Source: Planctomycetota bacterium
GTDB lineage: Bacteria; Planctomycetota; Planctomycetia; Planctomycetales; Planctomycetaceae
Direction of reading: 5' to 3'
DNA length: 64,000 bases
Assembly: GCA_003671275.1 (NCBI GenBank)
Contig: QWPB01000077.1
Location: forward strand, 62,001-126,000
The translations under genes were made by a program, and so were the position numbers. A model generated the notes under the pieces. The model was not told where the DNA came from. It made no database searches and saw only the letters and a list, made by a program, of their open reading frames with translations. This document shows, in pieces, positions 8,530 through 64,000 of this stretch (position 1 is its first letter; the number at the start of each line of letters is the position of its first letter).

Positions 8530-10011
8530 CTAGACGATCCGAAGATCATCCACCATGCAGCACCGCCGCACGCGGGTGAACGTCAGGGGGTTGGTGACCC
8601 CTTCACCGGTCGGCGTGGCGATGCTGAACGACAGGTAGCCTTCTCCACCCAGTCCCAGACCTGCGGGCGAGGCCCCGTTCTTGATGAAGAGCGTGGTGTC
8701 CATCGCGTGAGCCATGATGCTCATGTTCCGCACATTGCGGGAGTGAATGATCGCGGTGTGGCGGAAGCCGTGTTCGAACTCGACGGCCAGATCGACGGCG
8801 TGCTGGAAGTTCTTCGCTCGCACGAACGGGACGAAGGGCATCATCTGCTCTTCGGGGACAAACGGGTTGTTCGTGTCGGTCTCGCCGTAGAGCAACTGGG
8901 TTCCGGCGGGGACGCGGAGGCCGATCTTCTCGGCCAGCACCGCGGGGTCTTTGCCGACCAGATCGCGGTTCAGTACCCAGTGATCGCCGGGCTTCGGCGG
9001 GGGCGAGAAGGCCACCTTGGTCAGGGCTTCGACCTGCTGAGCATTCAGCCGGTAAGCCCCGTGACGGGCCATTGCTTCCATCAGGGAATCGAAGATCGGC
9101 TGCACGGCGAAGACTTCCTTCTCGCCGATGCACAGCAGGTTATTGTCGAACGCTGCTCCCGAGATGATCGACTTGGCCGCGTTATCGATATCCGCTGTCT
9201 CGTCGACGACGACGGGCGGGTTGCCGGGTCCAGCGACGACCGCCTTCTTGCGGCTGGCCATCGCAGCGCGGGCGACAGCGGGTCCACCAGTGACACAGAG
9301 CATCTTAATGCCGCGATGCTGGAAGATCGCATCGGCGGTTTCCAGCGTCGGCTTCTCGATGATCGTGACGATGTTCTCGATGCCGATCGCGTCCGCGAAG
9401 AGCTTGTTGAACCGCCGCACCCCTTCACAGGCGATCCGCGCCCCATTCGGGTGCGGGTTCACGACCATCGTGTTGCCGCCCGCCACCATGTTAATGATGT
9501 TCCCCGCCAGCGTCGGCAGCGAGTGCGTGACCGGCGTGATGGCCCCGATGACACCGAACGGAGCGTACTCCTCGACCGTCAACCCGTGGTCGCCGCTGAA
9601 GACGTTCGACTTCATGTACTCCGTGCCGGGGACCAGCTTGATGATCTTCAGCTTCTCAATCTTGTGATCGAGCCGACCGACCTTGGTCTCTTCGAATTCG
9701 GCTCGCCCGAGTTCTTCGGCCTGCTGCTCGCACATCGTCTTCACGATGCGGCAGACCTCGGTACGGGCGGCCATGCCCTTCTTGGTCAGTTGAGCGAAGG
9801 CTTCCGTGGCGGCTGCGACGGCTTCGTCGACCGTCTGAAACACGCCCCAGTTCCCGCTGCCGCCGGGGCGATAGCTGTTGGTATTCGAGGCCGAGACGAC
9901 GGGGATGCCGTTCGTCTTAGGGGCTGGAGCCGAACCGGGAGCGGGCCGCTTGCCGAGTTGGGCGAGGACCTGTTCGACGACGGAACGGATGGCGGTTTCG
10001 TTGGTTTGCAT
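8530..10011 (-). CDS. CoA-acylating aldehyde dehydrogenase (PduP/EutE-like), BMC cargo
   Basis: A 493-residue aldehyde dehydrogenase of the CoA-acylating BMC class. The N-terminal helix ([16 protein letters not shown]) followed by a Pro/Ala linker is an encapsulation peptide. The nucleophile is Cys294 in [10 protein letters not shown], and [15 protein letters not shown] is the usual preceding motif. In PVM compartments it oxidises L-lactaldehyde (or a related C3 aldehyde) to the acyl-CoA using NAD+ and CoA, passing it to PduL. Length is usual for the family. The gene start is preceded by heptad repeats rather than an obvious purine-rich site. Confidence 0.93.
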
Positions 10012-10061
10012 GGGAAGGTGAGTGGTAAGAGGTGAGTGGTGAGAGAAGGGATCAGGGGTGC
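10012..10061. repeat. Intergenic CTCACCN heptad block
   Basis: On the minus strand about four tandem 7-bp units (CTCACCA, CTCACCT, CTTACCA, CTCACCT) fill positions ~10016-10043 and run up to TTCCC before the aldehyde dehydrogenase ATG. Only one arm of the inverted pair seen elsewhere is present. Confidence 0.5.
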
Positions 10062-11433: not shown

Positions 11434-12624
11434 TCAACATCCCCTGACCGCTTCCACGCTCTGGCGAGCAACCACGATCTCTTCATTGGTCGGCAACGTC
11501 CAAATTTGCGTCCGGCTGTCCGCCGTGCTCAGCTTAGCCTCACCCTTGGCGGTCTTGTTCAGCGACTCATCCAGCTTGATCCCGGCGAAGTCGAGGTTCT
11601 TCGTGGCGTGAGTTCGAACCCACTGGCTGTTCTCGCCGATGCCGCCGGTGAAGACGATCGCGTCGGCTCCGTTCAGCACGGTCAGGTAGGCCCCGATGTA
11701 CTGGCGGATGCTGGCGGCGAAGACGTTCATCGCGAGAGCGGCCCGAGCGTGGCCCTTCGCAGCTGCTTCTTCCAGGTCGCGGCAATCGGCGGACAATCCA
11801 CTGATGCCGAGGAGCCCGCTCTTGGACGAGAGGTCTTCCAGCACTTGCGGAAAGGTCTTGCCGGTCGCTCGCATGATGACCGGGATCGAGAAGGGGTCGA
11901 AGTCGCCCACGCGGTTGTTATGAGGCAACCCCGTCTGCGGCGTCATCCCCATCGAGGCCGATTGCGACACGCCGCCGACCATCGCACAGATCGAGTTGCT
12001 ACCGCCCAGGTGGCACGAAATGACCTTGAGGTCGCTACGTCCCAGAATCTGAGCGATCCGCGTCCCGATGTACCGATGGCTGGCCCCGTGATATCCCCAG
12101 CGGAGAATCCCGAGGTTCTCGGTCCACTCGTGAGGCACCGCATACGTTCGGTATTCCGCAGGCACCGTCTCGTGGAACCCTGTCTCCAGGGCCGCCACCA
12201 GTGGCATCTTCGGAAAGGCGGCGCGCAGTTGGCGCATCGCCCGGGCATACGGCGGGTTGTGAGCGGGGGCGACATCGGCCAGGGCCTCCATCGCATCCAG
12301 CAGTTCGTCGTTGACGATCCGCACTCCGCTCAGCTTGCCGGCGAAGACCGCCTTGAACCCGATGGCCGACACCTCTTCCACCGATTTGATGCAGCCGGTT
12401 TCGGGGTGGGTCAGCTGTTCGAGGCAGATCCGGACCGCTTCGGCGTGATCGGCGATCCGGCGGGAAACTTGCTCCCGCTTTCCGGCGATCTCAACAAAGC
12501 AGGTTCCCTCAGCATCCTGTCCGATCCGCTCGATGCCCCCGCGAGCCAGTTGGCTCTCGGTGGTCATGTCGTAGAGTCGGTACTTGAAGCTGGTGGAGCC
12601 GAGATTGGCAACAAGAACGAACAT
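11434..12624 (-). CDS. ackA: Acetate/propionate kinase of the microcompartment locus
   Basis: A 396-residue acetokinase-family enzyme that converts acyl-phosphate plus ADP to the carboxylate plus ATP. The N-terminal phosphate-binding motif is [38 protein letters not shown] and [13 protein letters not shown] are the other family signatures in the right order. In this locus it would take lactyl- or acetyl-phosphate made by PduL and recover ATP. There is no encapsulation peptide at either end. The start codon lies 2 bp from the end of the four-helix-bundle element upstream, so its translation signal may come from that element. Confidence 0.92.
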
Positions 12625-13061
12625 GGAAGTTCTCAGTGGTCAGTTTTCAGTCGTCAGTCTTTGTTTTCTGAACGCGTTGCATGAGTGCCGAAAGCATCCG
12701 CTTGATCTCGTGGACATCCTGAATCAGAGTCTGACTTTCATCCACCGAGAGGTAACCCAGATCAGTGGCTAGAATCAGGTGGTACTCTGTTTCGGAGGCG
12801 GAGCCTGCGGCGATCTGCAAGAAGCGACCAAAGTTGCCAGATGAGTGACCTCACCCCTCGGCGATGTTCGTCGGAACCGACGAACTGCTTCGTCGAATCT
12901 GACTCACCAGTCCATACAACTCGTCGCGTGGAAACGCAGCAGTTGTACGATAGATCGCGAGTGTCAGGGCGTGTGACTTCTTCCAGACCTGAAGTGAGCG
13001 AAAGTCTTGCATTCACTCACCTCTCAGACTGACTACTGACAACTGAGGACTGAAAACTTCA
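12625..13061. mobile_element. Putative cassette: four-helix-bundle pseudogene bounded by inverted TCAGTNN heptads
   Basis: The arms 12626-12660 and 13026-13060 are inverted copies, 30 of 35 positions matching, each made of GAAGTT plus four TCAGTNN units. The element fills the gap exactly: the BMC-H stop codon is at 13062-13064 and the acetate kinase ATG at 12624. It holds one four-helix-bundle gene, now broken, and its stop codon lies inside the left arm. Confidence 0.65.
12647..13012 (-). pseudogene. Four-helix-bundle (S23/IVS-type) protein gene with one in-frame TGA
   Basis: Translating 13012 to 12647 gives 121 codons of a four-helix-bundle protein (TIGR02436 type): MQDFRSLQVWKKSHALTLAI, DELYGLVSQIRRSSSSVPTNIAEG, then a TGA (12851-12853, codon 54), then FGRFLQIAAGSASETEYHL and LGYLSVDESQTLIQDVHEIKRMLSAL to a normal stop. 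The family usually has Cys or Ser at the TGA position (IAEGCG or IAEGSG), either one base from TGA. Everything after the TGA is intact, so the break is recent or read through. Such genes are known from intervening sequences of 23S rRNA genes and as scattered single genes; function is unknown. Confidence 0.85.
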
Positions 13062-13328
13062 CTAGATGAAGTTCTTCATCAAGCCGGCTTCCGGGCGAGG
13101 GATCACGTGCGAGGAGATCAGCTCGCCGACCTTGGCCGCGGCGGCGGCTCCGGCATCAACGGCGGCGCGGACGGAGCCGACATCGCCCTTGATGACGGTG
13201 GTGATGTACGCACCGCCGATGGGGATCTGCTTGACGAGGGTGACGTTCGCAGCTTTGAGCATGGCGTCGGCAGCTTCGATCTGCGCGATCATGCCCTTGG
13301 TTTCAACGAGACCGATGGCATCGTTCAT
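13062..13328 (-). CDS. BMC-H shell hexamer protein
   Basis: An 88-residue single BMC-domain protein (PduA/CcmK/EutM family) that tiles the shell facets as hexamers. The pattern is canonical: IGLVETKGMIAQIEAADAMLKAANV, GGAYITTVIKGDVGSVRAAVDAGAAAA and ISSHVIPRPEAGL. The pore loop falls around KQIPIGGAY. It pairs with the adjacent BMC-H gene upstream, the usual two-BMC-H arrangement of PVM loci, and no BMC-T gene is seen. Its stop codon directly borders the inverted-repeat cassette that separates it from acetate kinase. Confidence 0.95.
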   Translation of the reverse strand: MNDAIGLVETKGMIAQIEAADAMLKAANVTLVKQIPIGGAYITTVIKGDVGSVRAAVDAGAAAAAKVGELISSHVIPRPEAGLMKNFI

Positions 13329-13431
13329 GAGGTGGCCTTTGGCGAATGGCTGATGGCAAATGGCCAGCAGCGCTGTGAAAGGGATGTTAGCCGTCGAGCT
13401 CGCTCGACGTGCCAGCGAAACGAAGGATCAA

Positions 13432-13740
13432 CTAAGCCGGTGACTTGGCGGGAGCCGAGACTTTCGACTTCGGAATGACCGAGGCGAGTTCATCGTGCGG
13501 GCGAGGAATCACCTGCACGCTGACGACATCGCCGACCTTACCAGCCGCGCTGGCACCGGCGTCCACTGCGGCCTTGACCGCGGCGACGTCACCGACAAAG
13601 AAGCCGGTGACCAGACCGCTGCCGATCTTGTCCCAGCTGAGCATTTGGACGTTCGCGGCCTTGAGGGCAGCGTCCGACGCTTCGATGAGGGCGATGAGAC
13701 CTTTGGTCTCGATCATGCCCAGGGCTTCCATTTTGGCCAT
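13432..13740 (-). CDS. BMC-H shell hexamer protein with extended C-terminus
   Basis: A 102-residue BMC-domain protein: [54 protein letters not shown] and [19 protein letters not shown]. The pore loop (SWDKIGSGL) differs from the second BMC-H, so the two hexamers should have different pores. The start at 13740 has GGAGATAA upstream; the frame to 13812 is rejected because its added residues translate the CACGGAG repeat. The Ser/Ala/Lys/Pro tail of about 15 residues is absent from the partner. It is the first shell gene after PduL. Confidence 0.95.
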
Positions 13741-51243: not shown

Positions 51244-54200
51244 TCAGTCCACGGTGGCCTGGCGAACACTGGTGAGCATGAACACCAGCAGGCTGACGGC
51301 AAACACCAACTGGCTCATGACAGACAACGGAGCGGGCAGGAGCAAGTAACCGACGGCGCCCAGGCAAGCCAGGATCGCCAGCACTGGCCGGAACGATCCG
51401 CCGTGTGATGCGGACCAGACCCGTCGGGCCAGCCACAGGGCCAGCACGATCCAGGCAAGCGACCATACCCCCGTGAGGGACGTGGTCCACGCCTGTCGTG
51501 GGCGAAGCGACAATGTCAATTGTGGTGTCCCCCCCACTTTGGAGAAGACCGACTCCGTGCCCACCAGCGGCACGTGGATCGGCAGGGACAACCCGCCCGG
51601 CTGGGTCCAGTGGGGAACCGGGCCAGACGTCCCCGCCACGATGGTTTCAAATCGATCGCCACCGCTCACCATATCATCCATTCCCCCGCCCATCCCCCCA
51701 TAGGCCCCACCACCAAAGCTGACCGAATTCGACAGCTGGGGCAGCTGCTGAGACTGGTCGAATTGCTGGACCTGCTGGCGTGCATCAACTCCATTGATAT
51801 TCAGTTGAACCGCCCCACCGGCCCCGTTGGGAGCATCTGGCTGAGCTGCGGGTTTCGCCTGTAGCCCTTGTCCGGCGTTGGAATACGACTGTTCTTCCAA
51901 CTGCTTGCGGAGTGCTCCCCGGCCGTTATCCGCTTTGCCCGAACGACGGGCGAGCGACTCGCTCTTTTTCCCGGCAACTTCCTTGCCCTTAAACTCCAGA
52001 TTCATCTCCGGTTCCAGGGCAAACGCACTGTTGTTCGTGAAATTCAGTCCATTCTGACCGATAATGAAGTCTCGATTGTTGTCCACTTTCGCCAGCGATG
52101 TCACCGAGTTTGGGTCATCATTGGCGGGGGTCGATGGACAGTTCATGATCGCAGTGGCAATATCATTCCGAATCTGTTTATTGAACGACTGCAGCTTTGC
52201 GTTTCGGGCATAGGTTTCGCTGAGCCGGGAATCCCCCTGATAGCTCAGGAGGGCCAGATCAAGCTGCTTCAGGTTGCTCACGCACTGCGCCTGGCGAGCC
52301 TGATCTCCCTCGAAGTGCTTGATGACGCGGACCATTTCCTGATAGTCGGACTGCAAACGTTCCAGGCGGGCGGTCTCGGGGGAAACGAACGAGTCGTCGC
52401 CGCTCAGTTGATCGACGTTGGAACGACTGCGGTCATTGACCAGCGTGGCATCCAGTTTGTCCGGGGTGAGAACTTTCCACGACGTGTGAGCGACCGTCAG
52501 CCCGAAGTCGGGTGAGTCGTTACGGGTCACAACGCTCGGGGCGGGCAGTGACACTTCCTGCCTTGACGGGCTCCATCCATTCTTGAGAGGTGTCGCCAGT
52601 TGTCCGAACAGAGTGATCTGCACTTCGAAGCTCAGATCAACCATGCTGGTCTGGGGCAGTGGCACGAGATGAATCATCCGTTCCTGCAGTTGAGTCATGA
52701 CCGTTCGCGATGGACGCCCCTTGACAAAGACCGACATCAACCGCGCCCCGACGGGCAACTCCAGTCCGAGGAACTGCTGTCCCCGGTTGCGGACCGTGTA
52801 GATGGCTTGCGTCCGCCAGGTGCCGTCCCAATCAAGAGCTGTCACCAGATCGCTGCCGATGACCGTCGCCCGGCCCGATTCCTGGGTGTTTCCCCGGACC
52901 AGTTTCCACTGCGGATAGGCCATCGTGGGAGACAGCTCCGTGATGGCCAGTGCCTGATCCAGCAGGCTGCTCTCAACGACCAGTGGCAACTGATCTCGCG
53001 GAATTTTGCGGATCAGCTGCTCGTCGACAGACACTAGTTGGCTCTGCGAGCGGTTGACGACAATCGCCGCTTTTCTCTGGGATTCGAGTGGAACGTGCTT
53101 GCCAGCGACGTCCGGGCCAAGAAACGCAATGTTCGGGAGCCCCAGCAGGTCATTGGAAGCAGGAGGCAGCGTGACCACTCCGGTACAGAGAAACTGATTT
53201 CTGACGGGGTCGATCAGCTCAATGGTCCAGAGCAGTTCGCCCTCTGCAGTGCGTTCGGTGCTGATTTGCCGGACGTTGGGGACGGTTAACTCCAATCGTC
53301 CCTGGAACCAGGCGGGCGACGTAAACCGGAAGGTATCGGTTGCAGCCCGCGTGATCTTCCACCGGAACGTCAGACCATAATCGATGGAATCATCGGCCAC
53401 AGCCACCAGTGTGACCTGATCGCCACTGAGCTGTGCGACTTGCCGGGAGAGGTCAATCGAAGCCGCCGCACTGACGGGAGCCGTGGCCCGGAAGGCAAAT
53501 TTAATCGGCGAACTGCGCAGCTGTCGCAACTCCGGTGAAAGCTGGTCCGGAGGAGTGGACTTCCAGCCTTCCGCAGAACGGACAGTTGCGGAATAGAGAT
53601 CACTGACCCAGACAGCCAGCGTGGTGTTCAGCTTTTCGATGGCCAGCGGCTGGGGGGGCAGCAATTCGATGCCCACCGCTTCCGGTTTGCGGGGAGCCTG
53701 CCCCGTGAGGAGCAACTCCACCTGCCCCAGTCGCGGCTGGTCAAACTCGACCGTCAGCGTACGGTGTCCATTCTCGGACGGCGTGTCGTACCAGTCGTTA
53801 ATAAAATCGGCCCCGGCCACATCCATCAGGAGATAATCTGGGGGCAGATCAATCGACACGCTGGGCCGGGGAGCTCCCGTCAGATCGAAAACCAACCGAC
53901 TGGCCCATTCGGCCTTACGCGGAGCAATCTGCACACCGTGCTCTGCCACACAGCGTGTTTCGGGCTGACGACGGGAGAGGGAAATTGTCAGACGCACGGG
54001 ACGGGTGGCAAACCGGAATGCGGCCAAGGGGAGACCTTCGGGTCGATGAGGCGCAGCGACCGGCTGATACTTGTCCAGATCCACGCGGGCTGCTCCGGTC
54101 GTGTCGACGGGCCGCAGCACGAATTCGCTGGCGGCAAACAGTCCGATCTGGCCAATTTCACGAGTGGCCTCCATCGGAATGACTTCCGGCACGGGCAGTG

Positions 54201-57200
54201 TCTGCGTCTCGTGGGTGACCGGCAGCGGTGCGTAGAGGTCCAGTACGATCGCCGTCTGATCTTCGACCGTCCGTCGCAGGAACACCCGCAGCCTTCGGGT
54301 CATTCCCTGGGCTTCATCGAGCTGCCAGCCCCCGATGTCTGGACCAGACAGTTCGCGAATCGACAGGGCCGCCGGAACCTCGAAGGAAACCTCATTCAAG
54401 GCCCCTTGCCGTACGCGGTAGGCGAACTGGTGATTGAGCTGGAAGCCGACATCGTCAACGACGACAGCCGCTCCGGTGTCGACATGCACGATGGTGTTTC
54501 CCGCTCCGCGAACGGCGCGCGGCTGCCAGGAAATCGTGATCTCCCCGCCGCGATCGACGGCCGTTTCGAGCACCGGTCCGTCAGCGTTCTCGGAGAGGTG
54601 ATACAGCCCCGTTGACCCGTTCACACGCAGGTCACGATCCCCCATGATCTTGGGCAGTTGGACCGACAGCTTGGCGGCGGCGGTGGGATGAGTCTTGAGG
54701 GTGAACCGTCCCGCAGGCCCTTCCATGGGAGCCGATACGTCGAACTCGACATCCAGGATGTGCGTTCCTGGTTGGTCGAGCACAATCCGATAACCCGTTC
54801 CATCCGCCTGGAGAGCGGCGGGCTGACCATCCAGAACGGCACTCTTAAGAGCGACTTCGCGAATGGGCAGGGGCAGACTGACCTGCTTTTCAGGGAGGTT
54901 GATGACCACCATCCGGGATTTGACGTGAACGACGGAATCCTTGCCCGCATCCTCGAAGGTGGCAGCATGCAGGGCCTCGACGATTAGTCCATCGACTGGA
55001 CCGACGGGAGGAACAGCGGCTTCCGGATGGGCCTTACTCCACAGTTCGAGGAACAGCGGCTGCGGCAGGTAGACACGATCCGCGGTGCTGGGATCGTCTC
55101 CCGAATAGGGCAGCACGACATGCGGCATTGCGGGGGCGGGCTTCGGAGCCACCGGTTCTTCGGCCTGAACGGACGAGACAAAGCCCGCAGCAGCCAGCAG
55201 GAGCAACACCGATGTCATCGGGGAGGAGGTCGCGGGAACAACTCGGCGGCAACAGCGACCACAAATCCAACCTCCCAGTCGCATCAGAAGAGTCACTCCC
55301 AACACGGTTAGTCCTCCGAAGAACAGTCCATCGATCATTGGCTGCACCCCCGCAGGCAACAATGGAGCGATCCCCAAGGTGCCACAGACCAGCAGAAGAC
55401 TCCAGATAACCCGGATGGCCAATGATGTCCGACGGGTAAACCAGCCCGCAACCCACACGACGATCATCACAAACAAGCTGAAATCGCGTGAGCGATCCTC
55501 ACTGGTGAATCGCACAGTCAGGTCGGGGGCCGTGTCGCTGCGTCCGAGATACGTGAAGTCCCGCGAAGTGGAGTCGGCAGGGGTGACAAGCTGTAGCGCC
55601 AGTGACAGCAGTCCGCCAGGGGTATTTGGCAGGGCTGCCGCGAGGGCCGCCTGTTCAGCGGGAGCGGCCCCGCCGCTGCGGTCATTACCCGGAGCGGCCG
55701 TTCGGCCAAACCCCATCGGCTCCGCAGCCGAGGGAGGTTGATCAATAGCGAACGCATCGCTGGGGCCCGAACCCGCCTGACTGGCGGGATACGCAGGAGG
55801 AGCCGCTGACGTACCACGCAGGCCCCTCTGTCCATCTTGCATAGGGGCCTGAAGTACGCGTCCCGCAACTCCGGGCTGCTCACTGAAGAAATCGTCATTG
55901 GCTGGAGCCGCCCACGCCTTTTCATCATTCACGGTTTGTTCTTTCAAGAACTTCTCGCGCTGCGGAGTCTGCGACTCAATGCGATCTTTGGCCTCATCTT
56001 CGGAACCCGATAGAGCTTTATCACGGCCCCGGTTCATTCGTTTCTGTTCCGGGTTGATGGCACGGTAACCGAAACGAGTATCCGTCGGCGGTGTGGCTTC
56101 GGCATCGAATAACTGCACCGGAGCGGACTCGCTCACAATGCTCGGAGTTGACTGAATCGCATCCATTTCCACCGGAGAGCTGAACTCTTCGCCGGACATG
56201 GGGCGATCCCAGTTGTTCGCGGGAACAGCCATCGTGGGTACCGGTGTATGCAAGGCGGCGATGTCGTAGCGGGCGTTCCGCGACTGCTGCACTGCGGGCA
56301 GCAACAGGAACAGCACTCCAGCAAAGAGGCCGCACACGACACCAGCCGCGATCATTCGTTTCCATCCAAAGCGTTCCAATGACTTACGAATTCCCCAAGC
56401 CACCAGGAACAGAATGGCGAGCACGACAATCCCGTCCCGCACCCGCTGGGGGCTGGGAGCCTGCATCAGACTGCTGGCCCGGGCCAGCCAGCCATCTCGA
56501 TCGGGATCGATGGTCGGCTGGAACGCCCCCGGACTGTCGATCACCAGCCAGTCATTGGGATGATGCAGCTTCCAGCTCTGGCTGAGGATCTCCAGCGGCT
56601 GCTCAGCACCCTGGCCATCCAGAACACTGAACTTGGGAGGTGCCTGTGTCAGATCACTGGCCGGCGGGCCGGACAGCTGCGATCGATAGAAGAGGGTCAG
56701 TGTGTGCCGCTCGCTGGCGTTCCCCGACTGTGGGACGGCGACCAGCAGGCCATCGCCCTGCTGGCGGATCTGCTGTGGCTGTTGATTGACTTGAACGGCC
56801 CACAGATCCACCCCGGAGGGGAGCCGAACCTTAAGATTCTGAATCCCGATGGCGGTGAATGTCAGGTCGGATTGCTGCTGCAATTCCCCATTGCGACCAA
56901 GGACCGTCTGCAGGCTGAGCTGGTGGCCGATGGCTGTGGGGACTCCCGCGCGATCGAACCGTTGTTCGCCGACGAGCAGCGCCCAGCCCGGTCGTGAGTA
57001 GCGGAAGCCCGAGACGATCGGTTCTTTCGGCTGATAGAATGCTGCTGGAAAATCGATGGGATCCACTTTCGTCAGCGGTTGTCCGGCGGAGTCCGCTGCG
57101 ACCGGAGTCAGGAACTGTTCCTGCGAGGCCTCGACCGCCGCAAATCCCGTTTCACGTTCCGCCCCGACCACCGTCATAACCGGACAGGCAAAGGGCCCGG

Positions 57201-59373
57201 CCCCCGCCTTCACGGCCCGAATATTCACCGACAACAGCTGCGTACCGATCAGGTAGCGATCCAGCCGCAAAGTCCAACGACGGCGTCCGACCTCAACCGG
57301 ACCGGCGGTTTGTTCGACAATTTTGATTCCGGGAATCAGGATCAACTTGGGCGATCCCCCGGCTCCCTCGGCCAAGGCCACCAGTGAGGACAGCGTGAAG
57401 CGCAGATCGGTTCCCGCCGCTTCGGGTAGATCGATCATCAGCCGCCGCGTTCCGCCTCCTTCAATCGTCAGGGTCGATTCGATGTGGCTGTTCAACCGAT
57501 CGGCATCGACGCGAAAGAATGTCGAGGCGTGACTCGAGATGCGGGCGGGTTTTCGAGAAACATTCAGCACCCCCCGATAGCCGGTATCCTGCAGGCTGAA
57601 TCCCAGGCGGACAGACCGCCCATAAGCCGCGACCTTTTGGCCGAGCAGTGCCAGTTCGGACTGACTCGGAGAATCCAGTCCCACCAGTTCCGAAGGGACC
57701 ACTTCCAGTGCCTGCTCCGCAGTGATGCCGTACAGCCCTTCGACGATGCCTGCCTGTGGCAGTTGTAACCGGGGCAACCCGACCTGAACGGGATTGTCCT
57801 CGACGGGCCAGCCATCCGGCTCCAGCCCGGCATTGATCGTGAGCGTCACGGTTCCGTCGGCGGGGACCGGCGTGGGGAAGGTCACCCGCACCTGGTTTAC
57901 ACCGGCCTCCTGCGGAATGATCTGCCACGGCACCGGGTCGTTTCCGACAAACAAGCTGCGAATTTGCCATGAGGCGGGCAAGTTGATCTCGGCATCAAAG
58001 AGCGGAGCCTGTCGCGTTTGCAGATTGATGACGGACGTGAAATCGAGTCCGATGGGATTCAAGTCAAGCAGATTCGAGATGGCAGCCCGGACTTCCCGGG
58101 TCTTGGGCTCGGTGACGAACGGCAGTTGAAACCGGGGCTTCCAGATCTGGAAGTGCAGGAGTGCATCGCCATTCTCGGCGGTGGTCGTCTGATGCACGAT
58201 CGTGCGGACCCCGTCCAGTTCTCCCACTCGCAATCGCACGCCCGAGGGGTACCGGACGGTGGCGACGCCGACCTGTGACGTAATGTCATTGAAGTCGAGG
58301 GTCGGCACTTCCCAGGCGGTGTCGGTCGCTGCCTTCAAGACTCCGCGAAACTCGATCGAACGATTTCCGTCGAACGGCTGGCGATAGGCCAGCGTGATCG
58401 TCGTCCGGGTGGGATCGTCCGGAGTGTCGATCAGTTGCCATGAGTCGAGACCGGTAGAGTCGACGCCCGTAATCTCCAGCGACTGCGGAACCGTACAGAC
58501 CAGCTTGTCGATGGGGCGACCAATGACCTGCAATGCGGCCTGCGCAGCCCAGGCAACTTCGCCGGGAGCCACCGAGACCTGAATGGCTGTGCTCGCCAGA
58601 ATCAGCGAATCGGTGCGGGTCGTGGCCTGCCGATTGGTGATCTGAAGTGACGTACTTCGATGCCCCCCCAGGGCGATCCGGTACTCCGCAGGTTGGTCGG
58701 AAGGCCCACTGCGTGGCAGATTGTGTCCGCTCTCCGACAGAAACTTGCCGGCAGGCAGGGTGATGATCAGTTCTCCACTAGCTGCCGGAATCACTCCAAA
58801 CCCCGTGGACAGATCGCTGCCAATCGCGGCCAATCGGGCGGTGAGATCCAACGTCAATGTCCCCGCCCCCGACTGGGCCGTGAAGACTCGCAAAATGTTG
58901 GGATTCTCGCCGTGCCAACCCGCCAGAGCGGGCTGGCCATTGATCTGACACTTCTCAACCGACAGACCGTCCGTGGGGATCTGAATCTCAGTCCAGCCAC
59001 GTTCAAAGTTCATGAACCGAATCGTCGCGGTCAGTCGCAGCTGCTCCCCATCGATCTGACCGCGATAGTTGGCCGACGAGATCACCAGTCCCGAGGGTTG
59101 TGAGCCGGTTTTGGACTGGCGAGTGGCCTCGGCGACGAGGGCTTCGAACTCCTGTCGCTTCAGCAGAACCCCCTGCTTGTCGCGAGCCATGACCGCATCG
59201 AACTCTTCCAGCGGAACAAACAGATGCCGGATCGGCTGATCGAGCCAATCGTCGGCTCCCACCGAAGTCGCCCCCAGCAGACCGGCCAGCAATCCCAGCA
59301 GCAAGCAGCCCAGCCGGACTTTCCAGCTGACGCACAGGTCAAGGATCGATGATGTGTTTGACAATAAGTGCAT
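51244..59373 (-). CDS. Very large planctomycete-type envelope protein, apparently a two-gene fusion
   Basis: A 2709-residue protein I cannot assign. The N-terminal hydrophobic segment (VRLGCLLLGLLAGLLGATSVGA) is a signal or anchor. Residues ~40-970 are beta-rich and extracytoplasmic. Membrane helices lie at ~980-1028, then ~1298-1375. At M1386 a second signal-like stretch begins (MTSVLLLLAAAGFVSSVQAEEP), followed by another large beta-rich region (~1410-2630) and C-terminal helices (~2632-2700). The two halves look like repeats of one module also seen in the next gene (see findings). Residues ~2510-2570 are Gly/Gln-rich. With the gene 23 bp upstream it forms an operon. Function unknown; an intermembrane or surface role is inferred. 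Confidence 0.85.
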   Translation of the reverse strand: MHLLSNTSSILDLCVSWKVRLGCLLLGLLAGLLGATSVGADDWLDQPIRHLFVPLEEFDAVMARDKQGVLLKRQEFEALVAEATRQSKTGSQPSGLVISSANYRGQIDGEQLRLTATIRFMNFERGWTEIQIPTDGLSVEKCQINGQPALAGWHGENPNILRVFTAQSGAGTLTLDLTARLAAIGSDLSTGFGVIPAASGELIITLPAGKFLSESGHNLPRSGPSDQPAEYRIALGGHRSTSLQITNRQATTRTDSLILASTAIQVSVAPGEVAWAAQAALQVIGRPIDKLVCTVPQSLEITGVDSTGLDSWQLIDTPDDPTRTTITLAYRQPFDGNRSIEFRGVLKAATDTAWEVPTLDFNDITSQVGVATVRYPSGVRLRVGELDGVRTIVHQTTTAENGDALLHFQIWKPRFQLPFVTEPKTREVRAAISNLLDLNPIGLDFTSVINLQTRQAPLFDAEINLPASWQIRSLFVGNDPVPWQIIPQEAGVNQVRVTFPTPVPADGTVTLTINAGLEPDGWPVEDNPVQVGLPRLQLPQAGIVEGLYGITAEQALEVVPSELVGLDSPSQSELALLGQKVAAYGRSVRLGFSLQDTGYRGVLNVSRKPARISSHASTFFRVDADRLNSHIESTLTIEGGGTRRLMIDLPEAAGTDLRFTLSSLVALAEGAGGSPKLILIPGIKIVEQTAGPVEVGRRRWTLRLDRYLIGTQLLSVNIRAVKAGAGPFACPVMTVVGAERETGFAAVEASQEQFLTPVAADSAGQPLTKVDPIDFPAAFYQPKEPIVSGFRYSRPGWALLVGEQRFDRAGVPTAIGHQLSLQTVLGRNGELQQQSDLTFTAIGIQNLKVRLPSGVDLWAVQVNQQPQQIRQQGDGLLVAVPQSGNASERHTLTLFYRSQLSGPPASDLTQAPPKFSVLDGQGAEQPLEILSQSWKLHHPNDWLVIDSPGAFQPTIDPDRDGWLARASSLMQAPSPQRVRDGIVVLAILFLVAWGIRKSLERFGWKRMIAAGVVCGLFAGVLFLLLPAVQQSRNARYDIAALHTPVPTMAVPANNWDRPMSGEEFSSPVEMDAIQSTPSIVSESAPVQLFDAEATPPTDTRFGYRAINPEQKRMNRGRDKALSGSEDEAKDRIESQTPQREKFLKEQTVNDEKAWAAPANDDFFSEQPGVAGRVLQAPMQDGQRGLRGTSAAPPAYPASQAGSGPSDAFAIDQPPSAAEPMGFGRTAAPGNDRSGGAAPAEQAALAAALPNTPGGLLSLALQLVTPADSTSRDFTYLGRSDTAPDLTVRFTSEDRSRDFSLFVMIVVWVAGWFTRRTSLAIRVIWSLLLVCGTLGIAPLLPAGVQPMIDGLFFGGLTVLGVTLLMRLGGWICGRCCRRVVPATSSPMTSVLLLLAAAGFVSSVQAEEPVAPKPAPAMPHVVLPYSGDDPSTADRVYLPQPLFLELWSKAHPEAAVPPVGPVDGLIVEALHAATFEDAGKDSVVHVKSRMVVINLPEKQVSLPLPIREVALKSAVLDGQPAALQADGTGYRIVLDQPGTHILDVEFDVSAPMEGPAGRFTLKTHPTAAAKLSVQLPKIMGDRDLRVNGSTGLYHLSENADGPVLETAVDRGGEITISWQPRAVRGAGNTIVHVDTGAAVVVDDVGFQLNHQFAYRVRQGALNEVSFEVPAALSIRELSGPDIGGWQLDEAQGMTRRLRVFLRRTVEDQTAIVLDLYAPLPVTHETQTLPVPEVIPMEATREIGQIGLFAASEFVLRPVDTTGAARVDLDKYQPVAAPHRPEGLPLAAFRFATRPVRLTISLSRRQPETRCVAEHGVQIAPRKAEWASRLVFDLTGAPRPSVSIDLPPDYLLMDVAGADFINDWYDTPSENGHRTLTVEFDQPRLGQVELLLTGQAPRKPEAVGIELLPPQPLAIEKLNTTLAVWVSDLYSATVRSAEGWKSTPPDQLSPELRQLRSSPIKFAFRATAPVSAAASIDLSRQVAQLSGDQVTLVAVADDSIDYGLTFRWKITRAATDTFRFTSPAWFQGRLELTVPNVRQISTERTAEGELLWTIELIDPVRNQFLCTGVVTLPPASNDLLGLPNIAFLGPDVAGKHVPLESQRKAAIVVNRSQSQLVSVDEQLIRKIPRDQLPLVVESSLLDQALAITELSPTMAYPQWKLVRGNTQESGRATVIGSDLVTALDWDGTWRTQAIYTVRNRGQQFLGLELPVGARLMSVFVKGRPSRTVMTQLQERMIHLVPLPQTSMVDLSFEVQITLFGQLATPLKNGWSPSRQEVSLPAPSVVTRNDSPDFGLTVAHTSWKVLTPDKLDATLVNDRSRSNVDQLSGDDSFVSPETARLERLQSDYQEMVRVIKHFEGDQARQAQCVSNLKQLDLALLSYQGDSRLSETYARNAKLQSFNKQIRNDIATAIMNCPSTPANDDPNSVTSLAKVDNNRDFIIGQNGLNFTNNSAFALEPEMNLEFKGKEVAGKKSESLARRSGKADNGRGALRKQLEEQSYSNAGQGLQAKPAAQPDAPNGAGGAVQLNINGVDARQQVQQFDQSQQLPQLSNSVSFGGGAYGGMGGGMDDMVSGGDRFETIVAGTSGPVPHWTQPGGLSLPIHVPLVGTESVFSKVGGTPQLTLSLRPRQAWTTSLTGVWSLAWIVLALWLARRVWSASHGGSFRPVLAILACLGAVGYLLLPAPLSVMSQLVFAVSLLVFMLTSVRQATVD

Positions 59374-59396
59374 GACAATCCTCCCTTCCTGAGACT

Positions 59397-62300
59397 TTAG
59401 GACCGTGACTCATCAGATGACGAGGTCTCGGGCGGGGGAGGGGGGGGAGGATTCTCTGTCGGAGAAGCTGCCGAATCGTCGGTTGCCTCCGGCTCCTTGA
59501 GCGAGGTCGCGGTCTGTTCCGTGGATACCGGAACGGCTTCCGGAGACGTTGCCCCCGCAGGAGCGGTCGTCGTCACGGCTGCGGCAGCCACCAGCGTGGC
59601 AGCCATGGCTTTGCGGGCAAACACCGCCCGAATGATCCACAGGCCCAGCAAGAACGTCAGGCCATAGCGTACAGCCAGCAGTCCGGCGGCGAGGGATTGC
59701 GAATCTTTCAATCCATACAGCACAGCAGCGAATGCGGCGACCAGCAGCACACTCAGCTTATTTTCCACCGAAGTCGACAGCAGCAGCAGGGCCACCAAGG
59801 CAGCCGCACCGCTGAAGAGGAATGCCATCCGCACCCGGTTCCACCATGTCACCGCGATCTTGGGAGCCCCTCCGAGATTGGTGTACCCGTAAGCCACTCG
59901 CCCTTCGGTCGGCAACCGCACGCTGGTCCCAGCACTTGCGATCCGTCCGTGCTCACTGGTGGTGGCTCGCCGATCCCCGGAGAGCAGTACGTTCCACGGA
60001 TCCACACGGTCGATTTTCACGAATGATTCCGGATCGCCAACCAGCGAGAACTTCTCGGGCACATAAACGATGGCGGTCAGCAACTGCACCGGCACAGAGC
60101 CGCGGGCTCCGAGCACGGGCATCGGCAATTCCATCTGGCCGCGTCCATAGGAGCTGTCACCAAGCGACGGATTGACGCCCCATTGGAAATGCAGCGTGAT
60201 CACAAACTCCTGATCGCTGGCCGCATCCCGCGCGACGTTGATCCAGAACGATTCCCAAAGACCACCGCTGAGCTTCTGATCCTCGGCAATCTCCGCCCGC
60301 TCCAGATTCACTTCCCGGTCACCCACAAAGACATTCAGCACCTTGATGCCCTTGGGCAGATGCGCCAGCAAACGTTGCCGTTCGCTGGTCTTCAACTGGA
60401 GTTGGGCCAGGTAGGTGGCCTCTGCGGTTTCCCCGGTCACGATTTCAACACGGGCCTGAGAGACGACTGTTGCCACGACTTCTTCGATCTCGTATTTGGT
60501 CTGCGAAATCGCCAGGGTGATGGCCTTGTCCTCGGGCTGGGTGAAGTAGCGAAAGGCCTGCGTCCCGGATTGAGGCAGCAGGGACAACTCACGCACATCG
60601 ATCGGCTCGACATCGCCTCCGGTGGCCTGGGCACTGACCGCCAGGGAGTCATCCTTCGTAATGACCATCTCGCCTGTGATCTGTGACAGCGGCGTTTTCA
60701 CTTCACCCTTTTCGTACCCCAGCGGGCGAACCGCCTGCACATCCAGCTTCCGCAGTGAGAGCTTGTCCCCGGCAGCCGCCGCGGGCTTCAGGTCGTAAGA
60801 GATGAGAAACCGCTGAGTGCCCAACACCTCGCGCTGCATGATGATGGTCCAGGGAATCCATCCGTCCTGGGCTGCCCCTGGGGACTGCTGCTTGATCTCG
60901 GTGGAATTCCCTTGAACCGCCACGGCCTCAATCTGCACTCGCTCCGAGACTGCCGCCGGAACAAGAAACCGGAACGTGTCGACCCCCGCATACTGGACCA
61001 CAAAGTCCAGATGGCTCTTCACTTCGGCCAATTCGGGCTGCAAATGCACGGTCGTCGCGACCGAGGCTTCGATACTCGTGGGTTTGCGGACGGTTTTGAC
61101 TGGAATCGTTACGGGCCGCCGCGTGAAACTCCACGAGGACGTGGCCCGGGTATCCGCAATCGCCGAAGCGGCCACAACCGGCAATGGCTGGGCGGCAGAC
61201 AACCCGGCTTCGTTCGTCACGACTTCAATCGACTCTTTCGCGAACACATGAAGGCTGCCGATTTCCCGCTCGGTGCCCAGTGGTTCGAGGACGGGCAGCA
61301 CCAGTTCCGCCTGATCCTTGCCAGCGGTGTAGTCGCGATGCCCACGGACGGCAATCGTCAGATTGCCCATCCGTTTTTCATTGAGGCTGACCGTCAGAGT
61401 GCTGGAAACGGCATCGGCATTGAACTCTTTCATCCCGTCACAATTGACCTGGTCAATCGTCAGGCCATCGGGAACTTTGATCTGGACCTGAAAGAGCCCC
61501 GCCCGTTCGATGGTGTAATTCAGTGACGTATCGAGCCGCAGTTCATCGTCGGTGAACACCAGTTGGGAGGACTGGTCGACCAGCACGCGCGGCTGGACCG
61601 GTTTGATCGCTGTTTTCAGGGTAAACTTGGGAGCGAAATATTTGAACGACGTCACGCCATTTCCGCGCAGACGCTCGTGAAGGTCGGCCACGTCAATGCG
61701 AACCACTCCGGTTTGCTGCTCGACCGACAAAGCGAGATCGCCGCTGTGAAAAATGCCGATCTGCCCCGATTCTCGGACCACATCCAGTGCATGAATGCCG
61801 ACCGTCGCCGTGTCACTCATCCCCGCAATGTCGAAAGCCTCCTCGGGAATCTTCCGTTCCGTGTGCAGTTCGACATTGAATTTGCCGGTCTGGTTTCCCA
61901 GCAAATCGATGGTCACGACCTGGCGGCCTTCCTCCTCCTTGGCAATCCACCCTTTCAGACGGGACTCGGCGGATACGTCCAGAATCCGATGATCGCGGGG
62001 CACCGCAATCCGCAGCTGGGACACCTCACCGCGAAGCACTTCATAGACCAGCAGGGCGTCCGTGTGGACCAGCCCATCTTCGATCCCGACTCGCGTAAAA
62101 TTGTTGACACTCGCCAGCAGTTCCATCTCAGGCTTGCTGGTCGCCTTGGGCCGCCAACGAGCAGCGATCCGGGGCGTGGAGCCCAGATTCGCCTTGAACC
62201 GAGTCTGCTTTTCCGCAGCCTGCACCGGAAGCCCGATCAACCGGGGGGTGACTTCCACTGCCTGGTCAGCTTCGGGAATCACAATTTCAAACGTCGTGAT

Positions 62301-62906
62301 CCCCACGACCGGTACGTCAAACGCAAACTCGCGGCCTTCCGGGGAGGTGTGAATCTTGGCAGTCAATTCGATCGTCAGCTTCTGCTCCCCCGCTTCTCCA
62401 AACAGGAGGGCATAGTTGCCATCGCCGGTCCCCTTGAGGAGGATCTTTTCCCCGGCGATCAGTTGCCCGACAGCGGCGTCACCGAACCGAATGGGGACTT
62501 CCACCCATGGCTTCCCGAGAACATTGACGACCAGATCCACGCGAATGCGGGCGATGTCCTGCTCGACAGTCGCGACGTAAGCCGAACTGGAGATCACGGC
62601 GGGAACCTGAGCGGCCTCGATGGGTGGTTTTTCAGACGCGGTTTTCAGACGGCGATATTCCTCCAACGGGATCACCACACTGGCCCCCTGGGACTCAAAA
62701 ATCCCTTTCAGGAACTTGAACGGCAAGTAGACCTCACGAGGGCCAGCGACCGCAGCTGGAGCCACCGCCGGAGCGGCCCCGTCCATGGGGGTCACGGGAA
62801 CCACGACGGGCGGATTCGTCCCCGCAGCGGGCTCCTGACCGGGCGCCATGCGGGCCCATCCCATCCACAAAACCATCGAACACATTGCAGAAACGAGCAG
62901 GCGCAT
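59397..62906 (-). CDS. Large planctomycete-type envelope protein, partner of the giant protein
   Basis: A 1169-residue protein. The signal peptide is MRLLVSAMCSMVLWMGWARMAPGQ. A Pro/Ala/Val stretch (~25-55) follows, then the module start YLPFKFLKGIFESQGASVVIPLEEYRRL, ~900 residues of beta-rich sequence (for example IRVDLVVNVLGKPWVEVPIRFGD), and membrane helices at ~1030-1100 (FLFSGAAALVALLLLS, LSVLLVAAFAAVLYGL, YGLTFLLGLWIIRAVFA). The tail is low complexity (ENPPPPPPPETSSSDESRS). I do not recognise a named family. It is the upstream gene of an operon with the 2709-residue protein, separated by 23 bp, and shares its module. Confidence 0.88.
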   Translation of the reverse strand: MRLLVSAMCSMVLWMGWARMAPGQEPAAGTNPPVVVPVTPMDGAAPAVAPAAVAGPREVYLPFKFLKGIFESQGASVVIPLEEYRRLKTASEKPPIEAAQVPAVISSSAYVATVEQDIARIRVDLVVNVLGKPWVEVPIRFGDAAVGQLIAGEKILLKGTGDGNYALLFGEAGEQKLTIELTAKIHTSPEGREFAFDVPVVGITTFEIVIPEADQAVEVTPRLIGLPVQAAEKQTRFKANLGSTPRIAARWRPKATSKPEMELLASVNNFTRVGIEDGLVHTDALLVYEVLRGEVSQLRIAVPRDHRILDVSAESRLKGWIAKEEEGRQVVTIDLLGNQTGKFNVELHTERKIPEEAFDIAGMSDTATVGIHALDVVRESGQIGIFHSGDLALSVEQQTGVVRIDVADLHERLRGNGVTSFKYFAPKFTLKTAIKPVQPRVLVDQSSQLVFTDDELRLDTSLNYTIERAGLFQVQIKVPDGLTIDQVNCDGMKEFNADAVSSTLTVSLNEKRMGNLTIAVRGHRDYTAGKDQAELVLPVLEPLGTEREIGSLHVFAKESIEVVTNEAGLSAAQPLPVVAASAIADTRATSSWSFTRRPVTIPVKTVRKPTSIEASVATTVHLQPELAEVKSHLDFVVQYAGVDTFRFLVPAAVSERVQIEAVAVQGNSTEIKQQSPGAAQDGWIPWTIIMQREVLGTQRFLISYDLKPAAAAGDKLSLRKLDVQAVRPLGYEKGEVKTPLSQITGEMVITKDDSLAVSAQATGGDVEPIDVRELSLLPQSGTQAFRYFTQPEDKAITLAISQTKYEIEEVVATVVSQARVEIVTGETAEATYLAQLQLKTSERQRLLAHLPKGIKVLNVFVGDREVNLERAEIAEDQKLSGGLWESFWINVARDAASDQEFVITLHFQWGVNPSLGDSSYGRGQMELPMPVLGARGSVPVQLLTAIVYVPEKFSLVGDPESFVKIDRVDPWNVLLSGDRRATTSEHGRIASAGTSVRLPTEGRVAYGYTNLGGAPKIAVTWWNRVRMAFLFSGAAALVALLLLSTSVENKLSVLLVAAFAAVLYGLKDSQSLAAGLLAVRYGLTFLLGLWIIRAVFARKAMAATLVAAAAVTTTAPAGATSPEAVPVSTEQTATSLKEPEATDDSAASPTENPPPPPPPETSSSDESRS

Positions 62907-63360: not shown

Positions 63361-63858
63361 CTAAACACCCGAGAACGGATGCTTGGCGGTGTCCTTCTTG
63401 GCGAGCATTTCGCTGGCGCTGGGCTCGTTCTTCATCGCACGGGCGATCGCCAGCTTCGTTGCGTCGTAGTTGTACTGGAAGATCTTCTTGTCATCTTCCG
63501 CAGCCCAGTGAATGAACACGCCGCAGACGATGCACAGCGACTCCGCCTGGTCCTTGGCAATCACGCCCGCTTCAACGCTGTCGGCGACAGCCTTCGCCAC
63601 GGCGTACTGAGCGGGTCCGAACATCTGGACAGCCTGCTTGGCTCCCTTGATCGTGACCTTGGTGATCATGACGGTGGCGGGCTTCACGCCGAGATTCGGG
63701 GCCAGTACCGCCAACAGATTCGAGTGACCATGCGACTGGGTCGCGAGAGCATTGGCAAAAGCCACACCCACCGGACCGCTCTTGTCGCCGATCAGCAGAT
63801 CGATGTGTGCAATTTCGTTTCCATCACCGCAGAGGGCTTCGCCCACGTGGAACGACAT
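63361..63858 (-). CDS. fae: Formaldehyde-activating enzyme
   Basis: A 165-residue canonical Fae, which condenses formaldehyde with tetrahydromethanopterin (or its dephospho form) to methylene-H4MPT in C1 oxidation. VGEALCGDGNEIAHIDLLIGDKSGP holds the conserved His of the active site; FANALATQSHGHSNLLAVLAPN, KPATVMITKVTIKGAKQAVQMFGPAQYAVAKAV, VFIHWAAEDDKKI and YNYDATKLAIARAM are diagnostic. The start at 63858 is set by homology; the frame to 63927 is not supported. C1 transfer via H4MPT in planctomycetes is established. A diverged paralogue is at 15953-16516. Confidence 0.95.
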   Translation of the reverse strand: MSFHVGEALCGDGNEIAHIDLLIGDKSGPVGVAFANALATQSHGHSNLLAVLAPNLGVKPATVMITKVTIKGAKQAVQMFGPAQYAVAKAVADSVEAGVIAKDQAESLCIVCGVFIHWAAEDDKKIFQYNYDATKLAIARAMKNEPSASEMLAKKDTAKHPFSGV

Positions 63859-64000
63859 CGGAGAGTCTCCCGAGAATCCAAGTTGTCTGATGAGACCCCC
63901 CGCAGCCCGACACTGAGCGCGACGCAAGATCCATCCATCCGTCGAGATAGGTTACAGCCCGCCCGCCGAAATTCCAGTCCGACCCATCCTTCGGGGTGTT

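Follow-up and report, generated by a model that had tools for sequence, protein, structure and literature searches.

Two adjacent genes on the minus strand of the window (the 64,000-nucleotide stretch of DNA analyzed here, which comes from a planctomycete genome of 5.0 Mb; G000:C180) encode a 1169-residue protein, N, and a 2709-residue protein, AB, and both open reading frames reported in the first-pass annotation were confirmed. We define the halves of AB as A (residues 1-1385) and B (residues 1386-2709). Each of N, A and B contains five beta-sandwich domains followed by C-terminal membrane helices (Table 1). Planctomycetes have an unusual and poorly explained cell envelope and encode many giant proteins without annotation. 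Searches with whole N and AB identified no domain above cut-off in Pfam and none listed in NCBIfam, and sequence-profile searches of the PDB yielded sub-threshold matches only.

Table 1. Features of the N and AB genes, with positions in the window and residues of the encoded proteins. The slash marks the predicted signal peptidase cleavage position.
Feature	Position	Strand	Residues	Remarks
N, first gene of the pair	59397-62906	-	1-1169	1169-aa protein; signal sequence, beta domains, TM helices
N module beta region	59841-62741	-	56-1022	Profile A3; AlphaFold2 pLDDT 82; homologous to A and B
N beta domains			about 101-960	Five domains
N C-terminal TM helices			1025-1092	Three helices
N/AB intergenic gap	59374-59396	-		23 bp; Shine-Dalgarno AGGAAGGGAGG immediately upstream of the AB ATG
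AB	51244-59373	-	1-2709	2709-aa fused protein; nearly all relatives fused
A N-terminal signal peptide	59254-59373	-	1-40	...SVGA/DDW
A module beta region	56458-59235	-	47-972	Five domains, R1-R5; model pLDDT 87
A TM1-TM2 hairpin	56272-56445	-	977-1034	TM2 end DUF1559-like, match residues 1012-1034
A TM3-TM5	55258-55497	-	about 1293-1372
Buried signal-peptide-like segment	55162-55218	-	1386-1404	MTSVLLLLAAAGFVSSVQA/EEP; signal peptidase I predicted to cut after 1404
B module beta region	52384-55122	-	1418-2330	Five domains
DUF1559-like second half-helix in B	52234-52302	-	2358-2380	QARQAQCVSNLKQLDLALLSYQG
B C-terminal TM6-TM8	51247-51495	-	about 2627-2709

The Shine-Dalgarno sequence ahead of AB is strong, and in several relatives N and AB are closely spaced or share a 4-bp stop/start overlap. 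Based on this overlap, the two genes are likely to form an operon. A gene upstream of N (63361-63927, minus strand) was judged by eye from its sequence to be Fae-like (formaldehyde-activating enzyme); it is not a conserved neighbor of the N-AB pair.

The first-pass annotation had proposed that both halves of AB and the neighboring N protein share a layout, with a start motif, a long beta-rich region and terminal membrane helices, and had named profile alignment, structure prediction and a search for split homologues as checks. Using single sequences, BLASTP aligned A to N (A 49-862 with N 57-861, E 7e-11) and B to N (B 33-952 with N 58-989, 6e-13), and gave a marginal match between A and B (0.016). 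Profile-profile alignments of the beta regions, with module profiles first built from 14-20 genomes, were collinear over about 850 columns and significant for each pair: 2.2e-58 for A-B (848 columns), 1.6e-57 for A-N and 9.5e-60 for B-N. Reversed or column-shuffled control profiles gave P-values of 0.01-0.9. With 25 matched genomes, the values for the three pairs were 4e-97, 2e-101 and 5e-107. N, A and B are homologous modules over their full length, and the shared layout is borne out, with five beta domains in each.

The domains are also related to one another within a module. R2, R3 and R4 resemble each other (P 1e-10 to 1e-22 for most pairs, about 1e-5 for the weakest), as do R1 and R5 in A and B (about 1e-6 to 1e-8). 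None of the 210 reversed controls did better than 5e-4. Across modules, R1, R4 and R5 each match their own counterparts best, which shows that duplication involved the whole five-domain module. The halves might instead be alike through convergence on a common fold, both being tandem beta-sandwich proteins, and Foldseek does pair the modules with integrin alpha and other unrelated beta-rod proteins. This explanation is refuted as regards sequence homology by the full-length collinear alignments with their clean controls and by the domain-specific matching across modules, and we give it virtually no chance. That the modules are homologous and the fusion ancient we regard as almost certain. The giant unannotated protein and its neighbor thus acquire an anatomy of 15 related beta domains in two genes and three paralogous modules.

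Two elements of the proposed layout needed amendment. The start motif is present in all three modules but is bipartite, and the alignment of A (HLFVPLEEF...GVLLKRQEFEAL), B (HVVLPYSG...RVYLPQPLFLELW) and N (EVYLPFKFL...SVVIPLEEYRRL) matches the motif originally reported for B to the second part and not to the first. The terminal membrane helices are present, but those of A had been understated, as five predicted helices (981-1366) precede the buried signal. A sister relationship of A and B was not retained, the modules being equidistant with matched sampling (mean identities 0.175, 0.180 and 0.181); A and B are united solely by the pseudopilin relics described below. A duplication of the TM trio was likewise not retained, being suggestive only (hhalign P 4e-4, probability 34%).

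The N-A-B trio is undescribed, recurs across Planctomycetota and mostly has A and B fused; our literature searches found nothing on the N-AB family, and those on structure comparison and on polyproteins gave nothing useful. In genomes with these genes the usual state is N followed by fused A-B and, leaving aside copies truncated at the end of a contig, nearly all of these genomes encode AB in one frame of about 2200-3000 aa. N is also present in the cultured relative Thalassoglobus neptunius, and the named relatives put the window's genome near Planctomycetaceae. The cassette was not found in genus g8 of the same family (G009 and G286) in searches with the N and B profiles. In a tree of 87 modules, N formed one clade, and A and B formed one clade each save for a single long-branch row (B_L148). 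Since N, A and B are separate orthologous groups across Planctomycetota, they diverged before the sampled lineages. The tandem duplication and subsequent gene fusion proposed in the first-pass annotation are thereby supported, the modules being in tandem and the fused form retaining the B signal peptide in mid-protein, with the qualification that the event was a triplication and is very old rather than recent.

A second, diverged cassette in the same genome (L127 / L151, G000:C103:7042-16643), consisting of a 1174-aa N' and a 2174-codon A'B' frame, has the same gene order and a buried signal, and also occurs in related genomes. Each of its modules scored best in hhalign against its own counterpart: N' to N 632 versus 489 and 483, A' to A 484 versus 342 and 314, and B' to B 405 versus 366 and 309. 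Thus, by parsimony, the triplication and the fusion predate the duplication of the cassette. The family thereby gains a relative date of origin in addition to a phylum-wide distribution.

The search for split homologues identified one case. In genome G047 (L116), separate genes for N, A and B lie side by side in this order, and B has its own ATG and signal peptide, MNRVIVRVCVLAACLAVVLRSAVRA/EESS (VRA/EES). Because the fusion predates the cassette duplication, this split is more likely a secondary fission than a preserved ancestral state, an argument from parsimony on an unrooted tree. For A and B to have been separate ancestrally, with G047 keeping that state, many independent fusions would be required. 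The clean separation of the three genes in G047 would fit such a history, as would the position of this genome, which the N and A trees leave open. However, the fusion, with the same order and buried signal, is common to the second cassette and the other sampled lineages, and we consider separate ancestral genes improbable. The only other apparent split, in G048, was rejected, as it is merely a single in-frame TAG (L115:13778-13780) that interrupts AB within TM5, the frame being continuous elsewhere; the TAG is attributable to sequencing error, mutation or readthrough.

The joint of the fused protein consists of a charged loop, a short hydrophobic stretch, a small-x-Ala motif and Q/E/D-type residues. 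The first-pass annotation had placed the start of a second signal sequence at the internal Met1386. The signal-like segment is indeed present, but the methionine was not conserved among the relatives and no Shine-Dalgarno sequence was found upstream of it. An internal translation start was therefore rejected, and the joint is best described as a buried signal peptide, in the same position as the signal peptide of the stand-alone B protein in G047. The motif reads VQA/EEP in the window and SLA/QSK, AQA/KGP, VMA/QEQ, AIA/QQP, VSA/APP, VHA/QRQ and ARA/DEV in relatives, and it is kept in the joints of the second cassette, such as GYA/QTS, LTA/QDT and SFA/QQP. Small-x-Ala occurs in 13/14 sequences at the joint, as frequently as at the true N-terminal signal (13/14), compared to 3-8/14 at the other eight helices.

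This conserved signal-like segment is the feature expected of a polyprotein with an internal signal peptide, and its small-x-Ala frequency leads us to propose that AB is processed by signal peptidase to supply proteins of an envelope complex. From the sequence pattern, we consider cleavage of AB at the joint somewhat probable, with the sharp prediction that it occurs after Ala1404. AB might also stay a single polypeptide in which the buried signal now acts as a plain membrane-spanning helix and the two rods are held together by the fusion. The retention of the fusion in both cassettes and in most of the phylum is consistent with this, and an uncleaved helix would give a consistent topology as well. 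However, the motif is conserved in 13/14 sequences despite poorly conserved surroundings, the ordinary helices of the same proteins differ in this respect, and G047 manages without the fusion. We take the single polypeptide seriously but hold it to be rather improbable, and continue with the processed form.

The linkers following the beta regions were searched with a profile of the N-terminal helices of the genome's own DUF1559 proteins. This profile matched A linkers in the membrane half (window, L150, L041 and L040) and B linkers in the second half (window QARQAQCVSNLKQLDLALLSYQG, L035 7e-9, L042 3e-8 and L150 8e-6). With the local profile the window relics are weak (B 8e-5, A 4.5e-4). No N linker was matched, and none of the reversed and beta-region controls was better than E 3.7. 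The Pfam family PF07596 (DUF1559) scored below its cut-off of 23.3 bits both on AB (16.3 bits, residues 2359-2380 only) and on the isolated linker (22.3). A contiguous DUF1559 N-terminal helix (LLPAVQxAREAA followed by xCxNNLKQ) was not found in the window protein, in which the halves are split between A and B, 1300 residues apart.

Pilin-related sequence also lies behind the beta region, at one and the same site, in the A modules of two distant relatives. In L036 (within 8766-10034), a DUF1559 domain is kept (Pfam 2e-19), and in L115 of G048 (within 12260-13462) there is a type IV pilin-like segment (PDB PilA 7e-6; NCBIfam PilA 3e-8, below the curated cut-off). The simplest reading of these sequences is that a pilin-like insert predates the parting of A and B, in which it later degenerated so that complementary halves are left. 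A current functional link with pseudopilins seems unlikely. PF07596 has about 60 matches in the window's own 5-Mb genome and 0 in 14 control genomes; the relics link the N-AB family to this DUF1559 expansion. The B linker of one relative contains a squalene-hopene cyclase C-terminal-like domain (E 2e-10, alignment A10).

No catalytic motif was found in N or AB, and Gly, Pro, Trp and Leu make up most of the invariant residues. The family has no conserved neighbors outside the N-AB pair, and genomic context therefore gives no function; the multi-locus neighbor clusters turned out to be largely antisense ORFs of the N-AB pair itself. In one distant group, an ECF sigma factor precedes the pair (L125 477-4324 and L124 13322-16560; also near L112-L114), and a zinc-finger/YfbK-type VWA membrane protein lies directly upstream of N in L124 and L125. 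These neighbors hint at envelope-stress control of the pair in the L124/L125 group; neither is a neighbor of N-AB in the window.

We consider the following overall explanation, from triplication and fusion to export, processing and scaffold, fairly probable. A single ancestral secreted membrane protein, with a signal peptide, five beta-sandwich domains and membrane helices at the C-terminal end, would have been triplicated in tandem to N-A-B early in planctomycete history, after which A and B would have been joined in one reading frame. N and AB would be translated from a shared mRNA and exported through Sec, and AB would thread the inner membrane with both beta rods in the periplasm, a topology predicted from hydropathy and charges only. 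Signal peptidase I would probably cut at the joint, giving A and B in equal amounts, both membrane-anchored, with A retaining the signal of B as its last helix. The three paralogous rods would then, most likely, combine in a fixed ratio into an envelope scaffold without enzymatic activity; that N, A and B form a hetero-oligomer of this kind is put forward tentatively. The ancestral pseudopilin-type insert suggests that the family arose close to a type II secretion or type IV pilus-like machine, or was once linked to one. A bolder version, in which a phylum-wide polyprotein releases two rods that form an envelope machine with N, and A and B rebuild a pseudopilin helix from their complementary halves, is in our judgment quite unlikely.

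AlphaFold2 models of the beta regions of N and A (mean pLDDT 82 and 87) are strings of beta-sandwiches, in agreement with the beta-rich region originally proposed. In Foldseek searches of the PDB, Ost1/ribophorin I chains accounted for all of the top five matches of the N model (E 2e-9 to 1e-8, with 440-474 columns aligned). The A model matched integrin alpha (9e-10) and Ost1 (1.5e-8). Both models also matched the fold of the LTA4 hydrolase N-terminal domain (E 2e-4 for N and 6e-5 for A, rmsd 5-8 Å), and the R3 region of the A profile matched LTA4H 20-110 weakly by sequence (E 0.027). Whole-chain TM-scores were low (at most 0.31; 0.14-0.31 against Ost1) because domain angles differ. Based on these models, we read the modules as sharing an M1-N/Ost1-like domain type and not as members of the Ost1, M1 or integrin families.

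The fold matches to Ost1 could suggest that the modules correspond in bacteria to Ost1/ribophorin I, assisting an oligosaccharyltransferase or a translocon-associated machine. Against this stand the low TM-scores, the equally good match of integrins to A, the absence of glycosylation genes among the neighboring ORFs read, and the lack of a sequence signal, as no Ost1/ribophorin I match was found in Pfam or among the PDB profile matches. Published profile searches likewise gave no promising bacterial Ost1 homologues (PMC4973528). We consider such a counterpart very improbable and retain the reading of a shared domain type.

Compared with known systems, the modules resemble Ost1/ribophorin I, the best fold match of N, in having tandem beta-sandwich domains anchored in the membrane by one or more C-terminal helices. 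They differ in having five domains instead of two and three TM helices, in being duplicated, fused and bacterial, in domain orientation (rmsd about 20 Å) and in showing no detected sequence similarity. The resemblance to integrin alpha is limited to the tandem beta-rod, with no Pfam match to the FG-GAP beta-propeller head. N and A share a fold with the N-terminal domain of M1 peptidases such as LTA4 hydrolase, but N and AB have no catalytic domain and neither HExxH nor GxMEN, and the HExxH zinc site is also absent from 13 AB relatives. With the planctomycete pseudopilin-like DUF1559 proteins, AB has in common the first half of the N-terminal helix in A and the second half in B; it differs from them in that these are small relics in a giant beta protein without prepilin leader or globular domain. 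Bradyrhizobium FbcH (cytochrome b/c1) is an example of a precursor that is cut at an internal signal peptide. As in AB, one open reading frame encodes two membrane proteins that are connected through a signal peptide; FbcH, however, joins unrelated subunits, whereas the products of AB would be paralogues.
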